From Owenia fusiformis (Eukaryota > Annelida > Polychaeta > Sabellida > Oweniidae): a stretch of 64,000 bases of DNA. The notes beneath the pieces were generated by a model that was not told the DNA's origin, did no database searches, and saw only the letters and a list, made by a program, of their open reading frames with translations. Shown in pieces: positions 24,084-62,400 of the stretch. The DNA lies in NCBI GenBank assembly GCA_903813345.2, contig CAIIXF020000005.1, forward strand, positions 5,673,375-5,737,374. Reading direction: 5' to 3'. The number at the start of each line of letters is the position of its first letter. The stretch's first letter is position 1. Made by a program: the position numbers and the translations under genes.

Positions 24084-27000
24084 ATGTTCTTGGTTGCTTT
24101 CCTAAGCACATCAATCGTAAGTATATATATTTTTACTGCTTTTATGGTGATGTATATAACTAATATACATACATTATATATTTAACTATGAGAATATAGA
24201 CGTACACTTTTTCATGTCGCTCTTGAAAATGCAAAAGTAGTTTTTAATAGAAAGATACATAACATCGAGGAAATTTTAACGTTCATTGAAGCTGAGATGA
24301 CGTGCACGAAACTAAGACGACTCAAAAACAGACTTCTTCCGTCATGACATTATATTTTATATACTAGCTAATCAAATCACTATTATCTGTTAGTCTCAGC
24401 TACTATATGCCATTTTCATACGCTTTTCACCGACATTTTCAATGAGTATGAGATAGTATAGACCATTGTTTTTACTTAAGTTTAGTAAAATTTTGAGATT
24501 AGAGTTATTTTACAGATATCTTAAACTCGAAAAAGTATCAACATGCAAACGTGTTCATCCTTGGCCCAAGAGTAATTCATTGCAATTACATTAGCTGAGC
24601 TGCTATGAAAGCAGTGAAGGGCCGACCAGATGAAGAACCAACCTTGAAGGATGAACGTGTCGACATGGAAGTTGTTCACATGTTTTAATTGAATCCGATC
24701 TGCATTTTGAAACCTTTTATAAAACACCACCTACCAATAGGCCTATGTGAAACTCAACGCTCGATTTATTACGTGTGTTGAATATAAATACAGGGTGTCC
24801 CAAAAAAGGAAACCAGCAATAGATTGCTTATTTCTCAAATATGAATGATGATAGGAAACTTTCACAGCTACCATCTGATGGATTATGATGTCCTCTTTCG
24901 TATGATACCAAAGCTGTCTATTTTCCTTCACGGATGACTGAGTTATAAGGGATTTAAGTGACCATGTTAGAAATGAGTTTGTACCACTTTCAGCCAAGTC
25001 AATTTCACCATCATAACAAAGTGAAAAGTAACAACAAACATCAGGATATTACACATTACACATATCATATTTAACACCCCTTTTAAATCCCAATGTCCAT
25101 TCAAAGTTGTTTTAACCCCAGTGTCCTTCAACATGACCCCCATTCCTTTCAATGCAAATGTCTGCCCTTGATCTCATCGCACGTACTGCATCCCTGATGA
25201 TGTCTCTCTGTCCCCTTAGATCCTCCACTGCTGCGACAATCCTGGCCCTTAGATCATCAACGTCTCTTGGTGGTTTTGTGAAGACTTTACCCTTGAGATA
25301 ACCCCAAAGGAAGAAGTCGCAGGGTATCAGGTCTGGAGATCTCGGTGGCCACTCAATCTCGTGGTTCAAGGCGTACTCTAAACTGATCAGCAACCTGCTG
25401 AAGGCTCCCACTTCTGAGCCACTCACTTACTACGAATACTCTTTGATCTTGGGTCAGCTGCATGAATGCTTGTTCAGAAATGTGTATTTCGAATAGGACA
25501 TGGTCTTGGATAGCCATTTTAATCCCTCATTGTTCAGCCATTCATGACAGAAAAAGTGGCACAAACCAATTTCTGACATGGTCACTTAAATCTCTTAGAA
25601 CTCAGTCATCCGTGAAGAAAAATAAACACCTTTGGTATCATAAGAAAAAGGACATCATAACCTATCAGATGGTAGCTGTGAAATTTTCCTATTATTATTC
25701 ATATTTGAGAAATAAGCAATCTATTGCTGGTTTCCTTTTTTTGGGACACACTGTAGTCAAGATGAAAAGTTTTGCACCAGAATGCAGGTCAGAGGTACTG
25801 AAAAATAAAGTAATACTGAACAAGTACTGAAAATTCTTTAAAAAAAGTCAAAGACCCTATTCACATTTTTTGTGATAACGTCCACTTTCATTCCCAGATC
25901 CTGTCAATGGGGGTTGAAGGTCTGGCAGACCAACCTTCTGTTGAGGAACTGAGAAAAGAGATTGGTTTTAACATTACGCTAACTACATTTTGGGACGAAG
26001 CTGAGCGACAGAGTGCTGAGATATTCTGGGCCCAGCCTACCACAGTCAAAGAAGTAAGTAAATCACAGTACATGATCGAAAAGTTAACCAAACAGATTGC
26101 ACTGAATATGATAAACCATAATAAACAACAAACAAGACACTGCAGTGAACCAGTCCAACACCAAACCCATTCTGAGGGCCCAAACCACAGTATAGACAAC
26201 TACAACTTGCAATAGATAAGACAGAACAACGACAAGGCAGATTTGAACTTGATATTAAACAGTTGAAGGCTTAGACATTCAGAAAATATATAGGCTTATA
26301 TCGAATAATTTATTTCTTTTCAGATCCAAAAACTTGTGCTAGCGGCTAAAAAGTTTGGGTTACACGTGCGACCTGTTGGTGGAAGACATTCCTGGTCGCC
26401 ATTATTTGCGGACAGGGGTAACATAGGACTTGACTTAGCCATGTTAAAGGGAAAGAAATTCCGATTTGACAAGGTTACATTATGCCTGGCTATGGCATTT
26501 TTTATAAAGTAATCTGAACGAAAAAAATGAATTAAGGAATATGAGCTTCCCTAAACGTCCAGATAACTGCAGTATCTGAGGAACCCTTGTCTTCTGCCTT
26601 ATATACCTAAATGTATCAATCTAATGTACAAACGCCCATTAGCTTTTTAAAACTTGAGTTTTTTGTAGATTTAAAACTGTTGCTCTGCTATATATATTTT
26701 CGAAAATGTAGATTTTAAGTAGATTTATTGGGTTTAACGCCTTGCTTGTTCTTTTTCTTGTCAAGTGGTATTGTATTTCAGAAGCGAATGTTGGTGAGTT
26801 CTCTTGCCTCTGGCACAATGGAAGAATTGCATGCGTTTAACAAGAAAAATGGCGTAACAATTCCATCTGCGCCTGACCTTGGTGATATTACCCTACAAGG
26901 TACCACTGGTACCTCTGCTCACGTACGTAGAAGAGTTACATTAACAAAGCCAAAGTTAAGTTCCAATTGTAGTAATTCTCAGTCTAAATAACTCTTAAAT

Positions 27001-30000
27001 ATTTATTTTGATATATATGTATGATATTATTAGACTCCAGATGTCAATCTGGAGTCTATTGTTTTTGCCAGTATTCTTCTTTATTATTCTTATTATTATT
27101 ATTATTCTTCTACCTACGTTTTCTCAGTAACTAGAAGACATTGAGTCAAGATCTGTATATGGTCAATTTAGGTTCAGTATCTAGTTCCTCGGAAATTGGG
27201 TCAAATTTTTATCTAGGTCAGAGGTCAAGAACTAGGTCAAATCCAGTACTTTGTCACTTTTTTCGATTTTCTCGGTCGTCCTTCAATATTTTCGATCCGG
27301 GTTTTTTTCATTGTGTTCCTTTTAAAAAAGTAGGAAATCTAGGGTCGATTTAGTTTTTTGATATCTCAAACCGATTTCGAGATATCAGTGTCCGAAAACG
27401 AGGTCCAAAAAATATTTCTCCCAATCAAATGTCAAGGATATTAGTCTTATAGGAAATTTTCTCAGGATTCCGAATCTGAAAACCAAATTCGAATCAGACT
27501 TCCAGTTCGGAAGTTATGGCGTTTTGAAAACTCAAAAATCGCTAAATTTGGTGCCCATGTTAAGTCAATGGGAAAAAAGATTTTTTTGAAGTGAAAAATA
27601 CGGAATATAGACTGAGTTCAGCTTCATATAATCAAAGCCTTTAAAAGAAGGGGACCTCAAAAGCCATCTAGCTTGAAAATTTGGACACCAAAATGCCTAG
27701 GTCAAAATCTAGGTCAAATTCATAGGTTTTCCTTATTTTTTCGATTCTGACACTACACTTTAATTATATTCTTCGAAATTGTGTATACATGTAGCCAAGA
27801 ATATGCTTATAGTGTTAGCCTTTTGCCGTCAGAAAGTATTTTGACCCACTTTTGAGATATGGTGTCCGAGAAGTAGGTCAAAATAAAAAATTCTCCAAAT
27901 TTAATATATGAGTTATGTATTAAGGAAAAAATTTTGTCAGGAATCCGAATCTGCAAACCAAATTTTGATCCGACTTCCGGTTCGGAAGTTATGGCGTGTC
28001 CGAAAAGTAGGTCAAAATAAAAAATCTCCAAATTTAACATATGAGTTATGAATTAGGGGTAGAATTTTGTCAGGAATCTGAATCTGCAAACCAAATTTCG
28101 ATCCGACTTCCGGTTCGGAAGTTATGGCATTTTGAAAGCTCAAAAATCGCTAAATTTGGTGCCCATGTTAAGTCAATGGGAAAAAAAGATTTTTTTGAAG
28201 TGAAGAATACGAAATGTAGACTGAGTTCAGCTTCATATAATCAAAGCCTTTAAAAGAAGGGGACCTCAAAAGCCACATAGCTTCAAAATTTGGACACCAA
28301 AATGCCTAGGTCAAAATCTAGGTAAAATTCAAAGTTTTTTCTTATTTTTGCGATTCTGACACTACACTTTAATTATATTCTTCGAAATTGTGTATACATG
28401 TAGCCAAGAGTGTGCTAATAGCGTTAGCCTTTTGCCGTCAGAAAGTATTTTGACCCACTTTTGAGATATGGTGTCCGAAAAGTAGGTCAAAATGAAAGTT
28501 CTCCAAATTTAACGTTTGAGTTATGAATTAAGAATAGAATTTTCTCAGAAATCTGAATCTGCAAACCAAATTTCGATCCGACTTCCAGTTCCGAAGTTAT
28601 GGTGTGTCCAAAAAGTAGGTCAAAATATAAATTCGCCAAATTTAACGTATGAGTTATGAATAAGGGGTAGAATGTTGTCAGGAATCCGAATCTTTAAATC
28701 AAATTTTGATCCGACTTCAACTTCGGAAGTTATGGCGTTTTGAAATTTCTGAAAATCGATCTGATGGTATCCTGATAGAAAGTCAAGAGTAGAGAAGAAA
28801 ATATTGAAAAATTCATCCATCCATCCTTCCTATCTGATCCTATCCTTCCTATCTATCCTTCCTTCGTATCCTTTCCTTCCTATCCTTCCTATCCTCTCCT
28901 ATCATATCCTTTCTTCCTATTCTGTTCTATCCTATCCTTCTTTTTTATTCTATCCTATCGTTCCTTCCCATTATATCCTATCCTACCTTCCTATTTTATC
29001 CATCCATCTTATTCTGAATGACTCAGCTTATTCTGGATGACTCGGCTTATTTTAGATGACTGGGCTTAAAAAAGTCTAGATCTGGAGTCTGAAATTGAAC
29101 TTCGTTCAATTTCCAAAGTCTAGTTATAATTATGATATTATGATATGTAACTTACAAAATCAATATACTCAGACATGAACCTTCCTTTCTGAAAAAATCA
29201 AAACTTGAAAAGGACTCCTCACCAAGTGACCATGCAGACGACGTTCCAAAATTGAAAAAACTACTTGCATTGCTCCTTTCTCAATTTTTAAAGGCAATAA
29301 TATTTTCTACAGGGACAACCTTTTCAAGTCTTAGTAATAACATAAAAGAATGCCTATGTTCAAGTCTAATATGTAAGTTACATATTTTAGGGTTATTTAG
29401 GCTACTTTGATTTTGAGTACCGACGATTTGACCCCCAAAAATTACATTGAATAAAAAAGGATTAATCACTTCTTATTCGTTGTCAAATGCTGGCAAAGAC
29501 ATGTTGACATTTTTGACACTGACATTTTTCTCTTGACATTATTTTAGTATATATTATACACGTACACGACACTAATGCCTAAAAATTGTAAATGAATGAT
29601 AAAAACATATATTCAAACTATACTTGGGTCTTCTAAGCCTCAGTCACACCTGCTCTATGGCAACCGTACTGCTGGCGTAGCTTCCGAAAATCGTGAATTG
29701 TGAAGTAACGGCCGCCGTAGAGCAAATGTATAGTTTGAAAAGATGTTTTTATCATTAATTTACTATTTTTTGCATTTATTTTAGAGATTTTTGAAGAAAA
29801 GTTGTCAGCTTTTTATTTCTCAAATATTCAAATTTCCCGCCATTTTTCAAATAAAAGTTCATCATAAAATATTCTTCTATTCAGTGCAACATTGTCTTTT
29901 TAACACCATTCTCACTGTAGATGGTGGACAAAGGACATGCTATTTGAATATTAAGAATTGGACCGTAAGTGACCAAAATGTCCCTCAAAAACCACCTTTT

Positions 30001-33000
30001 GAAATTAAAAAAAAGTTTTACATATCACATTTTGATAACATTAGCAAATATAAGCTCCCTGGACGATCGAGCGTAGTCAGGGAGGTTACATGCTTTGTCC
30101 AATCATGCTCCATCTTCATGTACATTGGGCTCGATAATGCTCCATCTTTATGTACATTGGGTCCGATCATGCTACATGTTTATGTACATTGGGCTCGATC
30201 ATGCTCCATCTTTATGTACATTGGGTCCGATCATGCTACATGTTTATGTACATTGGGCTCGATCTTGCTGCATCTTTATGTACATTGGGTCATATGTACA
30301 TTGGGCTCGATCATGCTCCATCTTTATGTACATTTGGTCCGATCATGCTACATGTTTATGTACATTGGGCTCGATCATGCTCCATCTTTATGTACATTGG
30401 GTCCGATCATGCTACATGTTTATGTACATTGGGCTCGATCATGCTGCATCTTTATGTACATTGGTCTCGATCATGCTCCATCTTTATGTACATTGGTATC
30501 GATCATGCTCCATCTTTATGTACATTTGGCTCGATCGTGCTCCATCTTTATGTACATTGGGCTCGATCATGCTGCATGTTTATGTTTACAGGGCTCGATA
30601 ATGGAAGATGGTCCAACTGCGACGTATGTTTATGCAATTGACTTAGTTGATGGCCAAGGTAATGTGAGACAATTTAACGAGGACGATCATAAAGTGATCA
30701 TTACTGCTTGCAAGGTTCATTTAGGAATGTGCGGGATCATCTATAAAACAACAGTCAAGGTAAGATATCTTATTTAGAAACTCGACACTCATTTTACAGA
30801 CCCTTACATGCTTCTACAGGTCATCCAAAAAGTGTACCTTTTGACCATGGGCTTTCAACAGAAAGCCCATGTTTTGATCAAAACCTTGTTTCGGACATTT
30901 TTGAGAGGTTGAATTCTGAAAAATTCAGGTTTAAGTTCGTCAAATCCTGCACTGACTATTAAATGTCATTCTGATACTAAGACCATCTTTTCCTTACTTA
31001 AATGTAGAAAGGCACTAATAGTCTTGCTGCGATCTCTAACTTGGATGTTTAAATGAAAACCAAGAATAGTTTCCCGACTTGAAAGATCTAAGTGTCCCAT
31101 ACGTAATGGATTATTTGACGGTTTACACAGCCCAGTCGATATCAGTCGATCTTTAATTTGTTAATTTACTGAATATATTCTTCTTTAGGTGGTTCCCGAC
31201 AGAGTTTTTAAGTTTAGTATATCGGAAATTAAAGTTTCCGACTTAATACTGAATCAGGAGAATCGCAAAGATTTTGTGATGAGAAACTATGGGCTGTTTA
31301 CTATGTGGCTCGTCTTCAGTGGGGCTTCTGCTCGGGAGATCCAAGCTAGAGAATCTGACCCTTTACGCAGACCACCAGATAGTTGGAATCCAGCTAATGA
31401 TTTGGTCAGAGTGTGGTATGTTAGCACCATTCCAAGTAACATATATATGTTTAACATCCTGCTAAGGGGTTCAATCTTAGAAGGGTGGGATGAGAAAAAA
31501 ATCTGGAATATTGAACACTTCACAAGAAGAAAAATGTAATTTTTATAGAAGTATGCAAAAATGAGTGTTCTAAAATTAAACGGATTTCATAGTCCATATT
31601 GCAATAGTTTTTTAATTGCATGTTCACTACGGTTTTTGGATTAGATTAGATTAAAAAATCCGAAAAATTCACGTTGTTGTTACACAATTTCTATGAGTAG
31701 AAACCACTAAATGGAAAAAAGAAAATCTGATATTGGTCCTTTGTTCTGTAAGCAAGAATCCACAATGGCACATTTCAGGACAATGAATCCGGTGAACAAC
31801 GACTCTATTACCCCGGACAAAGTTTCATTTGAAGACTCCTTTCAATTAAAAGATGGCACAGTGATCACTGGTACTGCTGACTACAGGATGGCTTCTGAAA
31901 CTATCATCTTTCCAGCTTGGACAGGCACTAACGTCCATCTCAGGTCTAATGTTGCTTGGGCTACACCAGAGTCAAAAGATTTCTCAGCCAGTCAAAAAAC
32001 AATTGAGGTAAAGTTCCCTCGTTGGTCGTGTTACGTCGCCATTTTCTCGGCACTACATCGAAGCGGCGTCTGTCAGTGTGAGCTTTGAGTAGCTTTTACC
32101 ATTGATAAGTCCAGTGATTTATGTTGCTATCGCAACTCTGTCCGCTGTCACATCGAGGGTTACCGGTCACAGCAATTCGGATCAAATAATTTCGTTTTCA
32201 GAATCATGAATAAACATGCACAATGGACATGTTACAGTCCAAATATCCTTGAGTTTCTTTGTTGCATGATCTAATGAATAAGATATATAGTTTTATATGT
32301 CTCATGAGGAGTCGTCATCATATTCATTATTTTGTCTAAAATGTTTGCTCAATACCATAGAATTTCTTCGATGTCTACGAAACCGCCATTAAAAGATTGG
32401 GACTCTACACTGATTCGTTTGGGTTTTTCCGCTGGATTAGCCACAAAGATGATTGCACGTTATGCCATACAAAGGTAATGATTGCAATAAGTGTGACTTG
32501 TATTTTATTGATATTATATTAGTTTTGTAGTCGAAGCAAACTCCATTCACGATGAAACTTTCAAGACGCCATGGGGATATCATTTCAAGTCTGATCGTAC
32601 CAGTATTTGTACATCACATGACACATGTTAGCTATTAAGTAAGAAAATGTATAGAAATACGAGGGGTGATCCAAAAGTCTTGGACGCCTCGCTCTAACTT
32701 TGCTATTTTCTAATATAATTACATGAAACTTTCAGACAGTAAAGTGTGTATAAGTTTCAATAGAAAATAATATATTTTAGCTACTTTTCTAAATATTTTT
32801 TAATACCGGGTCCCTGCCACCCGGAACGGTATTTTAAAATAGCAAATCACGTCACAACTGTTATAATATGGCGAATACTTTAGGTGCAGGTGCACAACCT
32901 AACACCAGCAGGGCCGTCAGATGGGGGGGTGCGATGGGTGCGACCGCACCCCCCTTTGTCACCCCCCAAAAAAATTTGAAAAAAAAATTTGAAAAATTTT

Positions 33001-36000: not shown

Positions 36001-38857
36001 AACAATTGGATTAATGTGTAAAATATTTAATAATCAATTTCAGGTGGCTGATGATGACTTCAGATTGATCTTAGAGTTGGAGTTGGCCCCATCTTGCAGA
36101 CCATGTAACGATCATTTATTGGATGAACAAACCAGGGACAAAGTTTGGAGTTCAACGGTATGCTCTGTTAATTAAACTATACCGATACGATGCTTCCTAG
36201 TCAACTCGTACCCAAGACAACTCGTACCCAAGACAACTTGTACCCAAGACAACTCGTACCCAAGTCAACTGGTACCCAAGACAACTTGTACCCACGTTTA
36301 TTTTCTGTATTATGGGTGCATATAAGAAAACAAATTGAGTCTGTGTCAAAATGTTTAATGTTATAATGTGCCTCAATATTTTTTCTGAATTTAGAAGACA
36401 TTTTTTCTCAATGGATTAAGCAAAGCATTTTGTTTTAACTTGGATTACCTTTGAAGTCCTTTGAAGGGCTTGTTCTCAACTTTTTTTGTAATTCATATAT
36501 ATAAATGAATATAATTACAACAGTCACTTTTTAACAAATGAATCAAACAATTAATTTAGCTTAGTGCATTCAGAGAAAATTAATAAGGGAACTTTAATCT
36601 GTTAATTTCTTTTCCATTTTGAACTTAATTGGATTATATTTGAACACATGCATGCAAAGTGTATTATATCATGTATGAATAAGTATCAAAATAATATTTG
36701 ATATTCATATTATTTAGAATATTTTTTATTGCTTAATTTTATGAAGGTGACTTCTTAGAATTATCATTCTTTAATCTGATAATCTGAAATCCTAAATAGA
36801 TTATCTGTTTAATAAGAAATAGGCGCAAGTTTTGAAAATCTTTATATTTTTGATAATACCATACAGTATTTCAAGATGAACTAGATAACGGCAACTCCGC
36901 GGAGTAGCAAATCCCAACGAACAAAATATCAATTACCGAATTCCAATCAATTATACTCATTACTTTGGTTGAAAATGAAAAAATTAGATTTTAGAATTGC
37001 GAATTCCTGCAAAGCAGCCATTTTGAATTTTCTGAGGTACAAATCTGAAAAATAATACCATAATTGTGATCTACTCCAAAATTCCTTCAATTTGAGTATA
37101 ATATAGCCATACTTTTAAGAGATCGAAAAATTATTGCGAAATCGTACATTAGACGGCCATTTTGAATTTTACGAGGCTCGAATCAGAAAAAAGATACAAT
37201 ATTTGCAATCTACTCTTAATTGCTTTTCATTTGAGTATAATAAAGCTATACTTCAGAAAGATCTAAAAATTACCGAAAATTTCTGTTTTCCTGTCCCCCC
37301 ATACATGGCCCCTGGGGGTCAGGATGAAAAACACATGTGAAATAGATAAATGTTGTAAATACACTACCAAAATTTCAAACAATAATATTAATTACTTTGG
37401 TTTAGAATGAAAAGATTATGATTTTTGCGAAAAAGTTCCGTCATTTTTAAAGCGGCGGCCAATTTTTTTTTGCGTAAAACTATTCACCAATATACATCTT
37501 TCCACTAAATATGAAGAAAATCTGTCAACTAGTATTTGAGTTATCTTCCGGACAGACGGACGGACTGACTGACTGACGGACAGACGGACGGAGGGCTTCA
37601 CTATATCCCTAACGAACTTCGTTCGTTGGGATAATTAGATCTGATACTTGTTCCAAACACTCATTAACATACAAAAATACCACTAATATTGTGAACAATG
37701 ATTATGAAGATGTTGAATAAACATAAATCTCTTCCCTCGAACATCTGAATCTGTGACCAATATATTTGGTCACAAATTTCAATCAATTTCTCCCAAAAAC
37801 TCTTCTACATACTTCAAACTATTCTGAACTGTATGTAACCATTATAATATGTATATCTATACCCATTCCCAGCCCAACACTTGATTCAAAACAAAACATA
37901 TACTTGGGTACGAGTTGTCATGGGTACGAGTTGTCTTGGGTACGACTTGACTTAGGTACGAGTTGTCTTGGGTACGAGTTGACCAGTTACCGATACGATG
38001 ACTATTATGACGCCGTGGTTTTATAATTGTCCCTTTTCTAAATAACAGCTTTGTAATCTCGTTGAAGTCTCGTTTTAATGAGATTTTATGGGATCTGTAT
38101 TTTTTAACCACTTAAGACCAACATTTTCTTCTTTTTGATGGCATATTTGAGTTCTCCCTATTATTTTCTATTAAACAACTTAAACTTGCAGTTATTTACC
38201 TTTATTCAAATTTCCAGGATTTTCAAGTTTTCTGAAAAATGTCGGGCTAATTTTAATGTTAAATAACAATCTACATGTCAACAAGATCACATAGTCATTC
38301 TCAATTTACATGCTCATTGAATGTAGACCATGTATATCACTGTTGTACTGTGGACCCATATACAATTTACATGTTCTTTGAACGTGTAAACACAACATTT
38401 AAATAAAATAGTAAAACAATTTCGCTTGTGTAATTTTTGAAATAGCCTACGAATAGCATAGTAGGTGCAAGAATGCTGCACAAATGTATTTATTGTTACG
38501 ATGTATACAGTGTACTTTTATCGGCGTTTTGGATTACAGGTTGGCGTTGGCGTTATGTCAAACAACAGTCGTATCTTGCCACATTGGGGTAAATACTATG
38601 ACTATATTCCCGGAATGATTGACCACCTCCGTCAGAACTATGGCACCAACTTTGACGATTTCATCAAAATCCGTAATGAAGCAGATCTGGATCCTGACAA
38701 CATGTTCACTAATTCTCATTTGAGAACCTTGTTCCATGAAGCGATCGTTCGAAATGCTGAGACGAAAACGTGTTCCAGTGTGAAGCAAGTTAATACAATG
38801 GCAAAAAAGCTGACGAAGTTGTTAGATGATATGGATCTAGAAACATGCAACGCTTAA
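24084..38857 (+). CDS. Secreted or ER-targeted FAD-dependent oxidase, aldonolactone-oxidase-like (copy A)
   Basis: Nine exons join in frame to 549 codons: 24084-24116, 25898-26053, 26324-26473, 26782-26922, 30592-30759, 31189-31415 with 31779-32007 (phase 2 junction), 32361-32474, 36044-36157 and 38540-38857, counting that pair as two would make ten coding blocks. Exon 1 encodes a hydrophobic start (MFLVAFLSTSI), which suggests a signal peptide or anchor. RPVGGRHSWSPLFAD (His about residue 85) fits the FAD-binding loop of the VAO family, followed by ITLQGTTGTSAH and the fold-ending LGMCGIIYKTTVK. The C-terminus has LPHWGKYYDY, like the HWxK motif of gulonolactone and arabinonolactone oxidases. 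Substrate is not predictable; a bacterial-type sugar or sterol oxidase relative is possible. AATAAA follows at 39,020. Copy B at 50,455 shares every junction phase. Confidence 0.85.
24791..25753 (-). mobile_element. Mariner-type element, internally deleted, in oxidase A intron 1
   Basis: TA flanks the element at 24,789-24,790 and 25,754-25,755. The ends read CAGGGTGTCCCAAAAAAGG and the inverse, and the inverted arms extend about 220 bp. Between them is a minus-strand transposase remnant in which an N-terminal part is joined directly to a C-terminal part. Confidence 0.85.
25112..25525 (-). pseudogene. Deleted transposase: N-terminal HTH piece joined to C-terminal DDE piece
   Basis: Reading the minus strand from about 25,525, a start region with FEIHISEQAF and LTQDQRVFVVSEWLRSGS resembles an N-terminal helix-turn-helix. 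The sequence then passes, in another frame, into WPPRSPDLIPCDFFLWGYLK, the conserved segment around the last catalytic residue of mariner-type DDE enzymes. Most of the catalytic domain is missing and the two parts are out of frame, so it is non-functional. Confidence 0.75.
27031..29127. repeat. Element with terminal hairpins and an internal duplication of about 600 bp
   Basis: The left end carries the hairpin AGACTCCAGAT-GTCA-ATCTGGAGTCT. The right end has GAAATTGAA-CTTCG-TTCAATTTC followed ten bases later by CTAG. Inside, a block of about 260 bp (27,460-27,720) recurs at 28,070-28,330, and GACTTCCGGTTCGGAAGTTA-like segments recur at 27,966, 28,098, 28,576 and 28,708. The hairpin-then-CTAG right end resembles a Helitron 3' terminus, but no Rep/helicase is encoded. 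It lies in an oxidase A intron. Confidence 0.6.
28812..28995 (+). repeat. Pyrimidine-rich microsatellite
   Basis: Imperfect runs of CCTTCCTATC and CTATC for about 180 bp, within the larger element ending near 29,127. The frame running through it encodes only a low-complexity peptide and is not a gene. Confidence 0.8.
29586..29760. repeat. Short inverted-repeat element (MITE-like hairpin)
   Basis: ATTCAAACTATAC with upstream ATGATAAAAACATAT near 29,593-29,622 pairs with GTATAGTTTGAA and its extension near 29,727-29,757. The arms are about 33 bp and the loop about 105 bp, with no coding capacity. Confidence 0.6.
30105..30591 (+). repeat. 32-bp minisatellite abutting an oxidase A exon
   Basis: About fifteen head-to-tail units of 32 bp. 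Two variants, GGGCTCGATCATGCTCCATC... and GGGTCCGATCATGCTACATG..., alternate and each ends TTTATGTACATT. The array stops at the acceptor of the coding exon at 30,592, whose first bases GGCTCGATAATGGAAGATGG resemble the unit start. Only the last unit changes TATGTACATT into TATGTTTACAG, creating the acceptor. The overlapping long frames through the array are artefacts. Confidence 0.9.
32909..34979. mobile_element. hAT-like element nested in the mariner element, with internal tandem repeats
   Basis: ACCAG flanks it at 32,904-32,908 and 34,980-34,984, a 5-bp target duplication. The left end is CAGGGCCGTCAG and the right end CTTACGGGCCTG, imperfect inverted repeats. The interior has about five diverged units of about 310 bp, recognisable by GCCCAGAAAGCACCAAATAG near 33,077, 33,388, 33,694, 34,000, 34,270 and 34,715. 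These are separated by long C tracts. No transposase is present. Confidence 0.7.
35177..35440 (-). pseudogene. Deleted mariner transposase remnant
   Basis: An 87-codon minus-strand frame. MKEIKVRQRIL resembles the transposase start (compare IKVKQRIVIE in the element at 1228). It passes directly into LPYAQYSLDMAPCDFLTF, the conserved PYSPDLAPCDF-like segment near the end of the catalytic domain. The bulk of the enzyme is deleted. Confidence 0.7.
36193..37987. mobile_element. Foldback element with 16-bp terminal subrepeats and a 13-bp target duplication
   Basis: TACCGATACGATG occurs at 36,180-36,192 and again at 37,988-38,000. Just inside, the left end has about six copies of a 16-bp unit (GTACCCAAGACAACTC; about 36,200-36,294) and the right end about five inverted copies (about 37,906-37,986). 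A copy of the ACGG repeat family (36,879-37,634) lies within. No transposase is seen. It lies in the last intron of oxidase A. Confidence 0.75.
36879..37634 (+). repeat. ACGG repeat family, copy A
   Basis: Starts with AACGGCAACTCCGCGGAGTA and ATCCCAACGAAC. It ends with a GACAGACGGACGG-type tetranucleotide tract, then AACGAACTTCGTTCGTTGGGAT. The 12-bp termini ATCCCAACGAAC and GTTCGTTGGGAT are exact inverses. It is almost identical to copy B at 46,034. Non-coding. Confidence 0.8.
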
Positions 38858-40669: not shown

Positions 40670-43600
40670 ATGTTCAACATGCAAAGTTTAATTTGCTTTG
40701 CTTTCGTGTTTGTGCTAATTACCGGTAGTCTTTCGAAGACACGTCGAATTGTATTAGATGAGCCTCCGACTGAAAACTGGGTTATGTACAGAGCAACATC
40801 TCAAGACATTCCAAAATATAAGTACAAATGGCCATTGGAAAACGATCAAGGCCAGGTTGTTATTCCTCTAGACAGTTCGAAACGGTTAACCTTTGGTTTA
40901 TATTCGACTTTGCTGGATCTGAAGAGCAACACCATCGTGAGCACAATCTATCCCTATGGCATGAAAGCTGAATGGGAGAATCGTTGGGTTCAAACAAACA
41001 CGACCGTTTTGCATGTAAAATGTCGAAAATACAATGGATTGAAACCTTCGATTCCAAATAATGTTACGTTGGGACAGTATAAGGATATTCGTTACTCTAG
41101 AATTGAATGTTTTTTGAAGAATGTTTCTAGACCATTCTTAAAGGGTCTCATGCACGTAAGATGGTTGGATTTAGCGAACAACGATATTACTGAAATTGAA
41201 CAGCATGCGTTTGATGATTTGGTTGCATTGGAAGAGTTAGTCTTAACCAGAAATCCAATAAGAATCCTTCCTCATGGATTATTTTGCACTATGCCAAAAC
41301 TGAAGGCATTGAAATTGGATAACCTAAACCTGACAGGATTCCCAATTGCTGCGTTTCATCCTAACATTGACACTGCAAATAACCAATCCGAAACGACATG
41401 CCTAGGCAATCTTCAAGATCTGGATTTCTCGAATAACAAATTGTTCTATATCTTAAATGGTTCATTTTCTGGAATGACGATGTTGACCAACCTAAAATTT
41501 TTTAATTGCTCCATACACATATTGGAAGCAAATGCCTTCGAAGGGTTGGCAAATATAGAAGTTTTAAACTTAAACTTAAGTGAATTCGATAAAAGAATTA
41601 CCGATGGACATATTTTCAAGCATGCCGAAATTAAACTCACTTGGACTGAGTGTGAACAACATTACGCATTTTTCTTTCGATTTGCTTTCAAAATGCGAAG
41701 CGTTGACATTTGTATACCTCGAGATGAATCAAATTGAACGCATAGGCGGAAGTATTATTAACAACACTCGACTTGAATTCATAGAATTGCAAGACAATGC
41801 CATCGGATCTTTACCATCCAATGTGTTTCATTCTAATGGAACGAAATCTCTCGACCTGACCAATTGTAATATATCAACCATTCATCCAGATGATTTGTTT
41901 ATGCCAAACCTAATGGTATTAAGATTAAATAGGAATAACTTGACATTTCTGGGAAACTACACGTTTCATCATCTAGGTAATCTTAGATTTTTAAACCTAA
42001 CGAGCAATAGCATTGCAGAACTTGGTGCCCTAGCATTTGCAGGTCTCAAAAAACTTAAATATCTTTTGCTGGACTACAATAACCTCAGCCAGGTTCCACC
42101 TGGATTTGTTAAAGAACTGCAATCTTTGAAATTCTTGTCACTGAGACACAATAATATTCTTAGCCTAGATGGAACCATGTTTGAAGGCGTTGACTTGTTG
42201 GAAGAAATTTACCTAAACAATAACATGATTCAAAGAATTGAAAGAGACACATTCAAGCACTGCAGCTTGCTTAAAAATATTACACTTCAGTGGAATCACA
42301 TAGATACCATACCATATGGTACATTTGGACATATGCGAGGCTCATTAGAACTAATAGATCTGAAAAGGAACAACTTAAGTTCACTCCCAGCAGATTTGTT
42401 CACAGGATTCCTACATTTACGTGACATCGATCTTTCGCATAACAAAATCGTCAATCTATCTAGGAATCTAGTTGATGGTTGTTCAAGTTTACAATTATTA
42501 ATTTTAAGTTACAATCAGCTAAACGTATTCAACGTTTCTTTGGAGTCGATCACTTATTTAAGCAATTTATTAATTGCAAATAATCAACTGAGGGACGCAT
42601 GGAATATCTTCGAACATATACATCTTATGCCATCACTGGTAAATTTAGACCTATCATCAAACCATATGACTTCACTTGGACCGATTCCACATGTATTGGC
42701 AAATGATCCATCTGTGCTAGCTAGAGTGAATATAAGTCACAATCGCATCACAAATATTCCAGAAAATCAATTCTATCTCTCGACATCGTTGCAAAGTATT
42801 GACCTGTCTTCCAACAAAATACAAACGATAAACCAACCGAAGTTTAGGAAGAAACCTGAATATCTAGTCGAATACATTGTTGGTCAAGAAAATCCGTTTG
42901 TGTGTGATTGCCATATGAGATGGGCAAGAAACATGATAAATGAATCTGTGTGCACAGTTCCGGTTCTGAATGAATTGACGGAAAAAAGGATGGCAGATGT
43001 ACCACTTTTTCAATATCTTTGTAAAAGAAAAATGGAGTGTCCAGAAAAATGTGAGTGCTTCGCTGAAGTAGAAAGAGGGCCGTATTATTGGATACATATC
43101 AAATGTTCTAACAAAGGACTTGAGTACATACCTTTTGGAATACCAAATACCACTAATGTACTGGATGTATCTAATAATATCATCGGCCAATTGGATTCAA
43201 CAACATTTCACAATGATACCTTTCCTCAATTGAAAGTTTTGGATTTGTCTCTGTGTAAAATCAGCAACCTCTTCGGAAACGACATTTTCAATGGATTCGT
43301 GCAGTTAGAAATATTGAACTTAAGAAATAATTACATAGTACAGCTAAATGGGGAACCATTCAAAAATCTATTTTGGTTGAATGAACTTCACCTTGCATAT
43401 AATCGGATTAAGACAATTCAAGACAACGTATTTTCTGATCTCAAAATGCTGTCTTTCCTTGATCTTGAAGGCAACCAGCTACAGACTGTAAATGTTAGTA
43501 TCTTTGAAACGCTACAACTGATGTTGATAAATAGCAATGTGGGGTACATTAGTTTACTTGATGGTTCCCGTGTCAATGTTCGAGAGCCACAGAAATCAAA

Positions 43601-44474
43601 ATGGTCTATTTTACTATCTTATAATCCATGGGACTGCTGTAGAGCTCTACCATTGAAGAAATGGTTAAACGCTCACCAATTGATCATTCCGAATTTGGAT
43701 GATATTTACTGTTTAAGAGACAATATGACCTTGACTGAGTTTTCGTTGGATGGTCCTTTGAAGTCGAAAGTTCCTTTATTCAAAATCAGTGATTCGAACC
43801 TAACGTGTATTCCGGAGTCACCCGTGCCATTCCAACAGACTTCGTACTTCCATGCAATTATAGGAGTACTTGTTTTTGTATTATTCTTTCTCACGACAAT
43901 ATTAATTGTTAAACGGTTTAAATCACATATAAAACTGAAGCTTTTTATCTGGTTTGGTTGGAGATTTGACAGGATAGACAACAATTATAAACAGTATGAC
44001 GCATTATTGTCATACAGTGGACTCAATGGTGAATGGGTGCGTGATGAATTGTTGATACATCTTGAAGAAGCAGGGTACAAACTTTGTCTACACGAACGTG
44101 ACTTTAGAGCTGGGGAACCTATCGTAGATAATATAAATAACGCCATAGACAACAGTAAGAGGACGATTATTGTTCTTTCGAATGAGTTTCTACAAAGTGG
44201 ATACGCAATATATGAGTTTGTAAGATCGCACGATGATTGGGTCAGAGGTGAACGAGATCCTGTCATCTTAGTGCTTTATGACCCGTTGGATATTTTAGAC
44301 GAAGATGAGTTGGCAAAACATGAAACTCTGAAGACGTACATATCTACAAGAACATATCTTGAGAGAAATAATAAATACTTCTGGGAAAGCATCATGCTTG
44401 CAATGCCCCGGCGACGAAGGCAACGAAATATAGACAACGATGATGACGAAAATGAAAATATCATGCTGCAATAG
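40670..44474 (+). CDS. Toll-like receptor, multiple-cysteine-cluster type, with one frameshift
   Basis: Intronless. The first frame (40,670 to about 41,578) starts with a signal peptide (MFNMQSLICFAFVFVLITGS) and leucine-rich repeats. A second frame continues from 41,580 for 964 codons. In that second frame: repeats, a C-terminal cap (NPFVCDCHMRW, about 437), an N-terminal cap (CPEKCECF, about 486), more repeats, a second cap (NPWDCCRALPLKKWL, about 681), a transmembrane helix (about 755-777) and a TIR domain (about 802-945). Box 1 is YDALLSYS, the BB loop ERDFRAGEPI has Ala where many TLRs have Pro, and box 3 is YFWESIMLAM. A net +1 (or -2) shift near 41,570-41,600 breaks one repeat; it may be a sequencing error or a young pseudogene. 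Expected role: cell-surface innate immune or developmental receptor signalling through TIR adaptors. AATAAA at 44,882. Confidence 0.88.
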
Positions 44475-46033: not shown

Positions 46034-46812
46034 AACTAGATAACGGCAACTCCGCGGAGTAGCAAATCCCAACGAACAAAATATCAATTACCGAATTCCA
46101 ATCAATTATACTCATTACTTTGGTTGAAAATGAAAAAATTAAATTTTAGAATTGCGAATTCCTGCAAAGCAGCCATTTTGAATTTTCTGAGGTACAAATC
46201 TGAAAAATAATACCATAATTGTGATCTACTCCAAAATTCCTTCAATTTGAGTATAATATAGCCATACTTTGAAGGGATCGAAAAATTATTGCGAAATCGT
46301 ACATTGGACGGCCATTTTGAATTTTACGAGGCTCGAATCAGAAAAAAGATACAATATTTGCAATCTACTCTTAATTGCCTTTCATTTGAGTATAATAAAG
46401 CTATACTTCAGAAAGATCTAAAAATAAGCGAAAATTTCTGTTTTCCTGTCCCCCCATACATTGCCCCTGGGGGTCAGGATGAAAAACACAGAATATATGT
46501 GAAATAGATAAATGTTGTGAATACACTACCAAAATTTCAAACAATAATATTAATTACTTTGGTTTAGAATGAAAAATTTATGATTTTTTCGAAAAAGTAC
46601 CGTCATTTTTAAAGCGGCGGCCATTTTTTTTGCGTAAAGCTATTCACCAATATACATCTTTCTACTAAATATGAAGAAAATCTGTCAACTAGTATTTGAG
46701 TTATCTTCCGGACAGACGGACGGACTGACTGACTGACTGACTGACGGACTGACGGACAGACGGACGGAGGGCTTCACTATATCCATAACGAACTTCGTTC
46801 GTTGGGATAATA
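46034..46812 (+). repeat. ACGG repeat family, copy B
   Basis: Near-identical to copy A at 36,879 from AACGGCAACTCCGCGGAGTA to GTTCGTTGGGATAAT. It differs in the length of the GACT/GACG tract and a few bases. Its ATCCCAACGAAC and GTTCGTTGGGAT ends are intact. The high identity suggests recent spread or gene conversion. Confidence 0.8.
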
Positions 46813-46856
46813 ATGCATTTAACAATCCTTAATATCTTCCCGTCTGTGTATATCAG

Positions 46857-48348: not shown

Positions 48349-49325
48349 TTGCACTGCACTGTATTGAACTGCGATGTATTGTATTGCACTGCACTGCATT
48401 GTATTGCACTGTACCACATTGTATTGCACTGCATTGTATTGAAATGAACTACATTGTAACTGTATTGTATTTTATTGCACTACATTGCACTGCATTGTAT
48501 TGCACTGTATTGAACTGCGATGTATTGTATTGCATTGCATTGTATTGCACTGTACCACATTGTGTTGCACTGTATTGTATTACACTGTATTGTTTTGTAT
48601 TGCACAGCAATATATTGCACTGCACAATATTGTATTGCACTGCATTGCAATGCACTGCATTGTATTATATTGCACTGTATTGTATTGCACAGTATTGTAT
48701 TGCATTGTCTTGAATTACACTGCATTTTATTACACTGCATTGTATTTTATTGCAGTGTAATGTATTGTATTGCACAGCATTGTATTGTATTGCACTGTGT
48801 TGTATTGCATTGTATTGAATTGCACTGTTTTGTATTTTATTGCACTGCATTGCACTACATTGTATTGCACTGTATTGAACTGCGATGTATTGTATTGCAC
48901 TGCATTGTATTGAACTGTACCACATTGTATTGCACTGCATTGTATTGAAATGAACTACATTGTATTGCACTGCACGGCATTGTTTTGCACTGTATTGCAT
49001 TGCACTGCATTGTATTGCATTATATTGCACTGTATTGTATTGCATCGTATTGCACTGCATTTTATTGTATTATATTACACTACATTGTATTGTATCATAT
49101 TGCACTGCATTTTTTGCATCATATAACACTTCTTTGCATTGCATCATATTACACTACATTGTACTGCATCATATTGCACTGCATTGTATTGCATCATATT
49201 GCTCTGCATTGTATTGCATCATATTGCACCGCATTGTATGACATCATATTGCACCACATTGTATTGCATCATATTGCACTGCATTGTATAACATCATATT
49301 GCACTGCATTGTATTGCATCATATT
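48348..49325. repeat. Pentanucleotide satellite (TATTG/CATTG/CACTG)
   Basis: About 1 kb of 5-bp units, chiefly TATTG, CATTG and CACTG, in irregular order. A later part is enriched in GCATCATATTG. A small outlier lies at about 48,156-48,210. Because 5 and 3 share no factor and the units contain few stops, long frames open on both strands; their Cys/Ile/Ala/Leu/His-only peptides are artefacts. Confidence 0.92.
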
Positions 49326-49775
49326 CCGTATTTACCATTTCGTTACAGTTTCATTACATAAAATGTTATTTATAAGATTATAATTTTCAAACATTGAAAA
49401 TATTTTATACAATATCAATTAAAAGATATGAAATGGCCCAAAATAATATATTTTCAATGGAACCCTTTGCAAGGGTCACTTCAACATAACGCCACGTGTA
49501 ATCTGTATGCATACGCCCTCTTTTTATGAACATTATCTTTGAAACCATATTAGAATCGAATCTGATAAAAGTGCGCATGTCCTGGATGTGCTGCGCGCTA
49601 GAATCGGGAAATCTCAAAGTTCTCCTCGTTAGAGCCATCAATATTATCCAAAATTGTCATTTCGCTGGTTCACTCCGCAGTCTTTCGAAAAAAATCAAAT
49701 TCGTGGTGCCACGAATTTGTATTCGTTTTTTATTCACAGATAATCATTTTTTCATCGCGCACTGAATGCCGGAAT

Positions 49776-56400: not shown

Positions 56401-59400
56401 TACAAACTCAGGAAAATTTGTTTGAAACTTTAAAACCAGATTTGAAACAGCACAAAGATCCAGATAAACTGTTTTTTGTCTAGTAAAAGCTCTCGTGTTA
56501 ACTTACATTTAACCAAAGGAGCGCGTAGGTTGTCGCAAACAATTTCAATGTCAGACGATTATATGAACATGGTTGGATGGATAACATGTTTTTTTTTCAA
56601 TGTGTATTACATGGAGAACACTAATCTTAGAGGAAAACAGTTCTTTCAAATTACTATACTTGATACATCAAAATAGAGGATAGTATTATGCATTAAAAAT
56701 TGTATAAAATGATTGCATTTTTGGTAAAAATGAGGTCAGCATCTTTGAAAAAGTGTGTTGATGGGTTGATTGCTAGCTAAATATCTCAGAATCCGATTGA
56801 CTTTATTATTATTGTATATAATGATTTTCTTTGAGATATTGTATGGATCTAAAAGCTATGCTAAAAAACACGGTCCCTAATGTAATGTTGACTGATTGAC
56901 AACAATTTAATGCGAAAATTATTTATATATATTCTATATTACTGTTTTTATTAACATTTTTTGTGTTTTAGTGCAATTGTTTTTTGTTCCTTTTTACCAA
57001 TTCTTGAGAATGAAATAAAATATCTTTTCGAAGCTTGTTGGAACAAAATACCATATACAACATTTTCTTAGACCTCTCAATATTATAGTTATCCAAAGGA
57101 AATTTTGGTTGATTTTACAAAATGTATTAAAAAATTAAAACAAAAAAAAAACAAAATAGATAAAAAATTAAGATAACCCTTTTATTTCATTAACAAGATA
57201 CTTTATTAAAATCAACCAGACTTTCCTTTGTATACAATTACAACATTAACACGTTGTGTTTATGTCATTTAGTTCCTATGAGGTTCGGATAGATGTTTCA
57301 TTTCATTCCGAACATATGATACCAAGAACAAAAGAGGTATCTGGTGTTTTTTCTAAAACAATATAGAGAAAAGTATATAATTATATTTATTTCAAACAAT
57401 ATTGTCACCATTCAAAAGATGACCATTAAATTGACGATGTGTAAAATTTACAGAATTTTTTGATGACTGGTTTAAGAGAAACGTGTGTTCAAAAAGTTCA
57501 GCATATCGATACCCATCCTTTAGAAAATGATTAATTATAAATGTACACATGTTTTAAAACCATGTTCTTCTATTTCAAGATTAAAGATTTGGTAAAAGCT
57601 GCTAGGAAGTTTAGTTTACGCGTTCGACCTTACGGCGGACGACATTCCTGGGCGCCGTTGTTTGCAGATAAGGGTGACATTGGCTTGGATCTGTCATTGT
57701 TTGCGGAGGGAGACAAATTCACAGTTGACAAAGTATTAATGCAATTACTATTTGAAGGATGAGTATCTAAAATATCTAAATGTATTCGATGCTATATTTC
57801 TGATAAGGGATCATGAACACTCATACTCTAAAACCGTATTTGACAAAGTCTTAGTTTTTGAAAATCTTCTGACCCAACGTTATTGAGCAGTATTCTTTTT
57901 AGTTCCTTACTCTTAATTGATTCCAACAACGTGAAAGTCTAAAATGAGCGAATATCATAGGGCATTCATGACAACCTATGTCACAGACAACCTAAATAAA
58001 AAAGCTGGTCCTGGAAATAAACGAAAAGCGGGGTTTTGATTGGCATACCCTATATAATAATGGCCAATAATACAACCAGAACAACGGCAACGCCAAAGCG
58101 TAGCGAATCCCATCGAACAACCATGGATGGCATTTTTACAAACAAAGTATATTTTTCAAAATGGCCGCCTTCTTTCAAAAGTGTCATTAGACCATGTGCC
58201 ATAAACTTATAGTATTCACATACCAAATATGAACAAAATCGCTCCACTACTTTTCAAGTTATAGTAAAATACTTTAAATGGTGGCCATTTTTCAAAATGG
58301 CCGCCTTCTACCAAAAGTGTCATTAGACAGTGTGCCATGCTTTTAGTATTCAAATACCAAATATGAACAAAATCGCTTCACTACTTTTCGAGTTATAGTA
58401 AAATACATTTTCAAAAAAAATTTCAAAATGGCCGCCTTCTACCAAAAGTGTCATTTGACAGTGTGCCATACTTATAGTATTCACATACCAAATATGAACA
58501 AAATCGCTCCACTACTTTTCAAGTTATAGTAAAATACTTTAAATGGTGGCCATTTTTCAAAATGGCCACCTTCTACCAAAAGTGTCATAGGACAGTGTGT
58601 CATACTTATAGTATTCACATACCAAATATGAACAAAATGGCTCCACTACTTTTTGAGTTATAGTAAAATAAGTTTAAATGGTGGCCATTTTTTAAAATGG
58701 CGGCCATTTTTTAAAATGGCCGCCTTCTACCAAAAGTGTTTTTAGACAGTGTGCAATGTTTGGAGTATTCACATACCAAATATGAACAAAATCGCTCCAC
58801 TACTTTTCGAGTTAGAGCAAAAATCGTAAAATAACGAGTAAAGGCCGCCATTTTTCAAGATGGCTGCCATGTGCTTCTTTAATATCTACACTTCTAGCTT
58901 TAATAATGTCCTATATAATTTTTTTACATCTAAAACATATTGCTATTACAATTTTACATATTGCATCTAAATTACTGTAAATTCGGCACTAAAATGGCCG
59001 CCATTTTGAAATGAGCGGCCATTTTGAAAATCGGCTTTCGAGCAGAACTTCTACCCCCATAGGGTATATGTGTACAAAATATAAACAAAATCGGGCCAAC
59101 GGTATTTGAGTTATTGCCCGGACGGACGGACGGACGGACGGACGGACGGACGGACGGACGGACGGAGGCGTTCCCTATATCCCTCCGAACTTTGTTCGAT
59201 GGGATAACAAAAGGTCATCAGACTTAAACTGCCTCAGCCGGGAATCGAATCTTATCCACTTGTGAACTGCTATTTCATGTATTACCTAAAATTATTTCCA
59301 TGTGGAATTTTGTTTTAGGAAAGAATGTTAGTCAGTGCCTCGGCCTCTGCTTATTTGCATGAACTGTATCAGTTTAACACGGACAATGGAGTTACTATCA

Positions 59401-62400
59401 TCTCTGGACCAAATATAGACAACGTTACTTTGCAAGGTGCTACTGGAACATCTTCTCATGTAAGTCCAATAGGCCTGCTCATAGGAAAGATGACTATAGG
59501 TGTATTTCTAAGTCCCACAATGTTTAGATCTTAAGTACTGAATATAGGTGCACTGTATAATATTATACTAGACAATGGCACCTCTTCTTTTTGATCTATT
59601 ATCGCTATTCAATAACATGTAATTTATCTCAATAATTCTTAATATAGGGCCAGATGAAGGCCGAAGGCACCCTTGCAACGTATGTGTATGCGATAGACTT
59701 GGTCGATTACAAAGGTAGGAATAGACATTTCGACGAAGACGGTGATAAAGAAGTGATAACTGCATGCAGAACTCATTTAGGAATGTGTGGCATCATCTAT
59801 AATACAACCATAAGGGTAACTATTTTAAAAGATACAATGGTGGAAGGGGCGTAGTATGAGAAGGAATGAAATACACAATCGGCCAAACGTACAGTGTCAA
59901 CCAACCCCTCCAACACCAAACACGGTCAGACAAACTAAGCAAGCAATACAAGATCATTAAGACTCTGAATATGGCTGAATAGCCAGTTTGTTACACTGAT
60001 CGACCTAAGCAAGCAATATAAGATCATTAAGACTCTGAATATGGCTGAATAGCCAGTTTGTTACACTGATCGACCTAAGCAAGCAATACAAGATCATTAA
60101 GACTCTGAATATGGCTGAATAGCCAGTTTGTTACACTGATCGACCTAAGCAAGCAATACAAGATCATTTAGACTCTGAATATGGCTGAATAGCCAGTTTA
60201 TTACACTGATCGACCTAAGCAAGCAATAAAAGATCATTAAGACTCTGAATATTATGGCTGAATAGCCAGTTTATTACACTGATCGACCTAAGCAAGCAAT
60301 AAAAGATCATTAAGACTCTGAATATGGCTGAATAGCCAGTTTGTTACACTGATCGACCTAAGCAAGCAATACAAGATCATTAAGACTCTGAATATGGCTG
60401 AATAGCCAGTTTGTTACACTGATCGACCTAAGCAAGCAATACAAGATCATTAAGACTCTGAATATGGCTGAATAGCCAGTTTGTTACACTGATCGACCTA
60501 AGCAAGCAATACAAGATCATTAAGACTCTGAATATGGCTGAATAGCCAGTTTATTACACTGATCGACCTAAGCAAGCAATAAAAGATCATTAAGACTCTG
60601 AATATTATGGCTGAATAGCCAGTTTGTTACACTGATCGACCTAAGCAAGCAATAAAAGATCATTAAGACTCTGAATATGGCTGAATAGCCAGTTTATTAC
60701 ACTGATCGACCTAAGCAAGCAATTCGAGATCATTTAGACTCTGAATATGGCTGAATAGCCAGTTTATTACACTGATCGACCTAAGCAAGCAATAAAAGAT
60801 CATTAAGACTCTGAATATTATGGCTGAATAGCCAGTTTATTACACTGATCGACCTAAGCAAGCAATAAAAGATCATTAAGACTCTGAATATTATGGCTGA
60901 ATAGCCAGTTTGTAATACTGAATGATCGACCTTATCAAAATATGTCCGCCGAGATACATAAAATCTGTAAAATTCGGCTCTTTGCTACCGATTCCAATAT
61001 CTTTAAAAATCCATAATTCAAATCCTAGCCCCTTTCCGTCCAATACATATGTGAGTCATTTTTATTGTTTCCGATTGTACATTTGACACGTAGGTGGTTA
61101 AAGACACAGTGGTCAAGTTCAGCAAAACACATATGAAGGCTTCTGACATCGTAACGAACCAAGATAATCGTAAAGCAGTCGTCATGGATAATGCTGGAAT
61201 GCTTATCATGTGGAGAATGTTCACGAGTGCTACTGACGAACAAATCATGGCAAGAAACACAGATCCGCTTCAAAGACCACCACTTAATTGGGATCCGGCT
61301 GATGATGTTACCACTGTATGGTATGTTAAACAATCACATTACAGTTATAGATATATCAAAAATACAAGGTGGGCCAAAAAACGCCACTTTTTTTCAAGAC
61401 ACTACAACTTTTTTATTTTCCAACAGTACATACCCCAGATTTTGCAGTTGAATAGTGCCAGGGGTTCTTAGTAATAATATAGTGTAACAAGTCCTTCAAC
61501 TTGGATTATATTTGATCTAAAAGAGGAGTTCCATTGGTCCGCCACCCTATTTAATGATATATTTTAGTTTTACCCGCCTTGCTGATATAGCAGTATTAAT
61601 GAAATGTTCAGTAGCTAAGTTTTTTTCAACATGTCTTGATTGCCAGCTTTAGTTGAGCAATTTTCTAGATTGGGTGACTTCATACAATCTCCTGCAGACC
61701 TTCCCATACCCTATACTCACTGGGGTTTGCATCAGGGCTATTAGCTTGGTGATCCTCAGGCCGATCAGTTCAGGAACATTTTGCAAATTATGCTTACTAG
61801 TATTTCTCATGGTACACCACATGTTTAAGTGAGACGCTGGTGACATATTTTATTCAAGTAAAAGTGTATTATTCATGATCCATTGCTAGATAACAACCTC
61901 AAGTTTCATTTGGTATGCAAATTATGATTTTGTATCAAAAATTAAAAAAGTTGTAGCATTTCGAAAAAAAAGTGGCGTTTTTTGGCCCACCCTGTAGTAT
62001 TCACATAAATTCTAATCAACACCATCATATGTATTCAAAATAAATAATTTTTTAAATTAGTTTTTCTGAGAAAATATGGCCTTTTTTCCTTAAATCGCCA
62101 TGATCCAAAACAACTATAAACGGAACACTTCCTGAGTGGATTAGCTTTGTCCCAAAGACGATGAATTTACATATGCTTTGAGACACTACAGATATTAAAA
62201 ATATTATGACTAAACGTATTTCTGTAAAATTCTTTTACGATAAAAATACAGGACAATAAACCCAGTTGATGATGTTGACATCAGACCTAACAAAGAACCA
62301 TTTGAGGACAAGTGGCGACTAAGTGATGGAAGAGAAGTGACTGGTACTGCAGACTACAGGATGGCATCTGAGACCATGTTGTTCACTGCGTGGACAGGCC

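Follow-up and report, generated by a model that had tools for sequence, protein, structure and literature searches.

Gene context and the two gene copies

The window, by which we mean the whole 64,000-nucleotide stretch of DNA analysed, holds two paralogous gene copies on the plus strand, hereafter referred to as copy A and copy B (Table 1). Copy A, which carries a minisatellite array at the 3' end of one of its introns, is predicted from its domain matches to encode an animal-type oxidase of the FAD-binding/aldonolactone-oxidase type. Its modelled exons have GT-AG borders and lie at 26782-26922, 30592-30759, 31189-31415, 31779-32007 and 32361-32474. These five central exons alone gave no Pfam match; with an N-terminal piece added, the protein matched PF01565 (FAD_binding_4; 38.4 bits, cut-off 26.4), and with a C-terminal piece (38525-38713) a match to PF04030 was obtained (ALO, D-arabinono-1,4-lactone oxidase; 30.1 bits, cut-off 23.1). 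The nearest PDB sequences among the matches listed were L-galactono-1,4-lactone dehydrogenase (E 1.8e-5) and xylitol oxidase (E 6.4e-4). Bacterial relatives of the copy A protein were found in 12 plasmid records, while no relatives were detected in phages, nor in the genome and viral collections when searched with patterns from the protein alignment.

Copy B (59319-62903) shares 60% amino acid identity with copy A over five modelled exons. The intron that bears the array in copy A lies at the same codon and in the same phase (phase 0) in both copies, between H and G of ...GTSAH-G in A and of ...GTSSH-G in B, but its length differs greatly (3669 bp in A vs. 188 bp in B). As originally predicted, the copy B intron has no array: its best alignment to the array scored 18, a value equalled by 197 of 500 shuffles and by 161 of 500 window stretches, and the intron is not unit-like. 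Because copy B has the same codon and phase at this position together with an intron that is not unit-like, the splice boundary is older than the array. The next intron of copy B (59935-60921) contains a separate 70-bp array of about 14 units (95% match) that reaches neither exon.

Several other features were observed in the window. Between two later exons of copy A lies an insert (36180-38000) with inverted terminal arrays of one 16-bp unit (36202-36294 and 37903-37981) and, on either side of them, a 13-bp direct repeat, TACCGATACGATG (36180 and 37988); we take this insert to resemble a foldback-type element. Two highly similar repeat copies (36889-37635 and 46044-46829) have 139-bp internal periods, and in both a CGGA-type array lies near the end. 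A 964-codon open reading frame with leucine-rich repeats and a TIR domain (41580-44471) is a candidate Toll-like receptor; taken with the presence of introns, it makes an animal origin of the DNA likely.

Table 1. Positions in the window of the array, its parts and the surrounding exons and introns of the two gene copies
Feature	Start	End	Strand	Remarks
Upstream coding exon, copy A	26782	26922	+	Ends ...GTSAH; donor gtacgtag, phase 0; homologous exon in copy B at 59319-59459
Array-bearing intron, copy A	26923	30591	+	3669 bp; array at 3' end
5'-most partial unit	30097	30126	+	30 bp; type-B-like start, GTCCAATCATG
13 full 32-bp units and a 16-bp half unit	30127	30558	+	Half unit at 30287-30302; every end is GTACATT; no AG
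Last intronic unit	30559	30590	+	Alone in ending TTTACA(G), the splice acceptor
Final partial unit	30591	30603	+	GGGCTCGATAATG; acceptor G and the 12 first coding bases (G S I M), including G-S of the H-G-[S/T] motif
Coding exon starting inside the last unit, copy A	30592	30759	+	GSIMEDGPTATYVYAIDLV...; FAD_binding_4 match over joined exons
Homologous intron, copy B	59460	59647	+	188 bp; no array, no unit-like sequence
Homologous exon, copy B	59648	59815	+	GQMKAEG...; used for ancestry comparison

Structure of the array

The array lies just 5' of the acceptor and runs across it, occupying 30097-30603 rather than the 30105-30620 first proposed. Tandem Repeats Finder bore out the tandem arrangement of a 32-bp unit and gave its highest score (703) to a period of 64 over 30097-30585. 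The array is made up of a 30-bp partial unit, 14 full units, a 16-bp half unit and 13 closing bases. Two unit types can be distinguished, type A (GGGCTCGATCATGCTCCATCTTTATGTACATT) and type B (GGGTCCGATCATGCTACATGTTTATGTACATT). The start GGGCTCGATMATG, initially given for the unit in general, is found in some units, but four begin with GGGTCCG/TGGTCCG (type B) and three with GGTCTCG, GGTATCG and TGGCTCG. Likewise, the predicted A/B alternation with its 64-bp higher order, although in agreement with the best-scoring period, is confined to 30127-30430, with the half unit in between; the four units in 30431-30558 are all type-A-like, and the last intronic unit is a mixture of the two types (6 mismatches to A and 7 to B).

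The ends of the units agree with what had been expected: GTACATT closes 15 of the 16 intronic repeats, and TTTACA(G) is found in the last one only. The hexamer ATAATG is common to the exon and the 5'-most full unit, whereas ATCATG stands in 11 of the remaining 13 full units and ATCTTG (30255) or ATCGTG (30527) in the last two of these. This sharing fits array edges that have escaped homogenisation.

The three forward frames of the array contain 0, 0 and 1 stops, and the unit itself is stop-free. Given that the frame of the exon is also open from 29785 (region 29785-30774), retention of the intron end would give no early stop. We considered whether the array might be a coding repeat and rejected this, because 17% of shuffled units are stop-free too and homology to copy B begins at the acceptor; for the same two reasons the array is read as intron.

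Overlap of the array with the coding exon

The first bases of the exon are the last partial unit of the array, as had been proposed from the sequence. The 13-base segment GGGCTCGATAATG matches the first of the 14 full units (30127) at 13/13 positions, five others at 12/13, two at 11/13 and the remaining six at 9-10/13. We then searched each of the eight introns between modelled exons, a subset of the introns of the two genes, for copies of the 13 bases at its own acceptor and donor (16 boundaries in all). Copies matching at 11/13 or better were detected at this acceptor only (1 of 16 boundaries; 8 copies, best 13/13), where 0 of 200 shuffles reached 13/13; for the remaining 15, the best matches were 7-10/13 and were equalled by 19 to 200 of 200 shuffles. 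The overlap between exon and array is not chance, and it is in phase with the unit, which combines about 20 intronic and 12 exonic bases of one splice boundary. A short segment lying across the splice border was apparently duplicated into the intron about 15 times, head to tail, and the array is probably a minisatellite of the 'mirage' kind, with units that span a splice boundary.

Alternatively, an intronic array of satellite or transposon origin, with no relation to the exon, could have come to lie beside it by coincidence, and many other arrays do occur in the window. This explanation is almost certainly wrong, however, given the 13/13 in-phase run into coding sequence and the restriction of copies at 11/13 or better to one of 16 boundaries; moreover, the window outside the array yielded only 11 short matches to it (11-15 bases, E 6.0). 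The 24-base core of the unit had 0 exact matches in the viral collection and 0 in the bacterial and archaeal genome collection, and an Rfam search gave no match.

Two further candidates for exon-derived sequence were set aside. The stretch 30609-30640, deeper in the exon, aligned to the type-B unit with few gaps and a score of 24 (eight other exons, both strands: 14-19; dinucleotide shuffles, 0.014, n = 500). Four scoring schemes were applied: synonymous recodings did equally well in 129, 62, 26 and 526 cases of 1000, and window stretches in 24, 47, 18 and 410 of 1000. Under two of these schemes one or both nulls come out at 2-3% or lower; we treat the alignment as a hint that is not robust and make no use of it. 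The reverse complement of the exon gave no signal against the array (0.632 of shuffles equally good).

Exon edge and array: which came first

Having no array, copy B allows the age of the exon edge to be assessed. At the 12 bases of the exon edge, A and B agree at 8, similar to the next bases (15 of 24); 122 of 63,441 window 12-mers (0.19%; array and both edges excluded) are as close to the copy B edge. When the unit consensus was slid through its 32 phases along the copy B exon edge, both types reached 8/12 in the exon phase; in the other 31 phases the highest match was 5 positions for type A and 6 for type B. Such a phase-specific match to the exon of an array-less copy speaks against a foreign array, which would have no reason to match in this way. 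This comparison at the base level rests on one paralogue and concerns the exonic part of the unit; the intronic part has no outgroup, because the intron tail of copy B is unrelated.

The encoded residues point in the same direction. As first noted, copy B encodes GQMKAEG where copy A has GSIMEDG; the exon of A therefore starts with G-S and completes an H-G-S motif, and B reads H-G-Q. We compared this motif in 10 of the 12 plasmid records (H6 and H12 left out; L010 reaches only H-G-T), of which about eight are independent over the compared stretch (L004 = L005, and L006 and L009 are one residue apart), and found H-G-S or H-G-T in 10/10. Among the PDB alignments listed (3 of 12 and 5 of 27 rows), HGS or HGT occurs in four of five enzymes (AldO 2vfr, 8ot8, GALDH and 3js8), the exception being DprE1 (4g3t), whose HGK breaks the H-G-[S/T] motif. 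Judged by these alignments, GS in A is the family-like state and GQ in B the outlier. Ordinary divergence can thus account for the difference between GSIMEDG and GQMKAEG, which gives no indication that A was rewritten.

From the H-G-[S/T] motif, the 8/12 agreement with copy B and the in-phase match, we infer that the exon edge is probably the older element and seeded the array, which favours the first of two options in the original prediction, namely an exon-edge origin of the repeat followed by its spread into the intron. The second option places the array first, inside the intron, with the initial exon codons later overwritten from it by slippage or conversion. Codons 3-4 (I-M) do sit at family-variable positions, so overwriting there would be tolerated. 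Furthermore, once the GGC codon is left out (a glycine conserved in all rows compared), only 5 of 9 bases are shared by A and B, and the likelihood ratio in favour of descent falls from 52-72 to 3.5-5.8, a weak signal that leaves room for a possible partial rewriting of codons 2-4. Overwriting is nonetheless unlikely in view of the conserved G-S at the exon start, the agreement of 8/12 with B, which is like that of the neighbourhood, and the fact that the unit fits the array-less paralogue better in the exon phase than in any other. The two options lead to different expectations. If the exon edge came first, GGCTCGATAATG should be found at the exon start of an array-free orthologue as well; if the array rewrote the exon, TCGATAATG should be tied to relatives with the array, and codons 2-4 should differ in array-free orthologues.

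Proposed mechanism and the AG-free zone

Under the exon-first reading, the array may have originated by tandem duplication of the last ~20 intron bases together with the first 12 exon bases. The upstream copy would have become intronic and lost its AG, TTTACAG changing to GTACATTG. Slippage or unequal exchange could then have multiplied this AG-less copy, both singly and in A/B dimers, and made the units partly uniform; the array would leave the transcript together with the spliced intron. The most 3' copy would stay fixed, because it carries the real acceptor and the codons for H-G-S of the FAD domain. An upstream copy that still bore an AG could act as a rival acceptor, and the 32 bases gained would cause a frameshift, so it is the AG-less copies that could spread. 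The array, its in-phase overlap with the exon, the conservation of the intron position and that of the exon residues are read directly from the sequence; the direction from exon to array, the order of AG loss and amplification, the mode of copying and the use of this acceptor in RNA are inferred.

None of the 16 intronic repeats contains an AG, and the sole AG in 30097-30591 is the acceptor itself, so the gap ahead of the acceptor extends over 507 bases (30083 to 30590), the second longest in the window. The longest gap on the plus strand, 571 bases (48776-49347), lies inside a TGCATT-type array. Notable as this is, we do not take the AG-free array as proof of selection, as an AG is likewise missing from 24% of shuffled units and the gap of 571 belongs to another array. 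That AGs were purged by selection against cryptic acceptors, with only AG-less copies able to amplify, so that the exon edge continues to lengthen its intron and also builds an AG exclusion zone of ~500 nt whose length, and with it the splicing of this exon, varies between individuals, seems to us quite improbable.

We also rate as very improbable the idea that the array is a selected splicing element whose AG-free zone permits a distant branch point and whose unit number tunes use of the exon. The position of the acceptor AG, 507 bases past the preceding one, would suit such a role, and precedents exist in the available parts of two reports: in some human exons the branch point lies 100-400 nt away from the 3' splice site and AG-free zones are present (PMC1431707), and the minisatellite CeRep25B is over-represented near alternative splicing regions of C. 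elegans (PMC4039745). A regulatory role for the array is, by analogy, possible in principle. However, AG-free units occur among shuffles as well and the longest AG gap belongs to a different array; the pyrimidine content at this acceptor is ordinary (0.63, compared with 0.53-0.68 at seven other acceptors); the array is absent from the paralogue; and the exon encodes core FAD-domain sequence, the skipping of which would presumably be harmful.

Comparison with known systems

Mirage minisatellites, whose units span an intron-exon boundary, have been described in amphioxus in the globin genes BflGb6 and BflGb9 and in Adh3, in the available part of the report (PMC3087553). The same part describes duplication of the 3' intron end and the 5' part of the next exon in BflGb6, and gives unit lengths of 10-72 bp in Adh3 and 150-160 bp in the globins. 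It further states that AG/GT signals are kept in many but not all units, that regular splicing proceeds without interference, and that the boundaries of mirage clusters escape homogenisation; mirages are also proposed there as a way in which new introns could arise (PMC3087553). The array in copy A resembles these mirages, as far as they are described there, in that one unit holds the intron and exon sequence of a single splice boundary, in its 32-bp unit, which falls inside the range reported for Adh3, and in its edges, which seem to have been spared homogenisation. Unlike the amphioxus mirages described there, many units of which keep splice signals, 0 of the 15 upstream repeats have an AG here, and the gene is of the FAD/aldonolactone-oxidase type rather than a globin or Adh3.

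Related cases are known from other genes. In lancelet PGBD5, 60- and 108-bp repeats lie over splice sites, and this system differs, in the part of the source available, in its longer units, its three copies of the 108-bp repeat and its gene (PMC3902484). The introns of earthworm metallothionein genes contain minisatellite clusters, for which the available part of the report yielded no boundary-spanning unit (PMC12783039). With the human distant-branch-point exons, as far as the accessible text describes them (PMC1431707), the array shares a long AG-free stretch before the acceptor, here well over 100 nt; unlike in those exons, the AG-free zone here can be a by-product of an AG-free unit. The literature searched, chiefly surveyed superficially, contained no mirage outside lancelets, and we make no claim of absence.

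Overall, the boundary-spanning kind of repeat is rare and has already been described, and the AG-less upstream units are the twist of the present array. With the paralogue as control, it illustrates clearly how a minisatellite can be seeded by the edge of a coding exon and make an intron longer with the reading frame left intact. It also suggests that loss of the AG from its copies allows a seeded array to spread. Should the host prove not to be a lancelet, the range of mirages would be widened beyond the published cases found.
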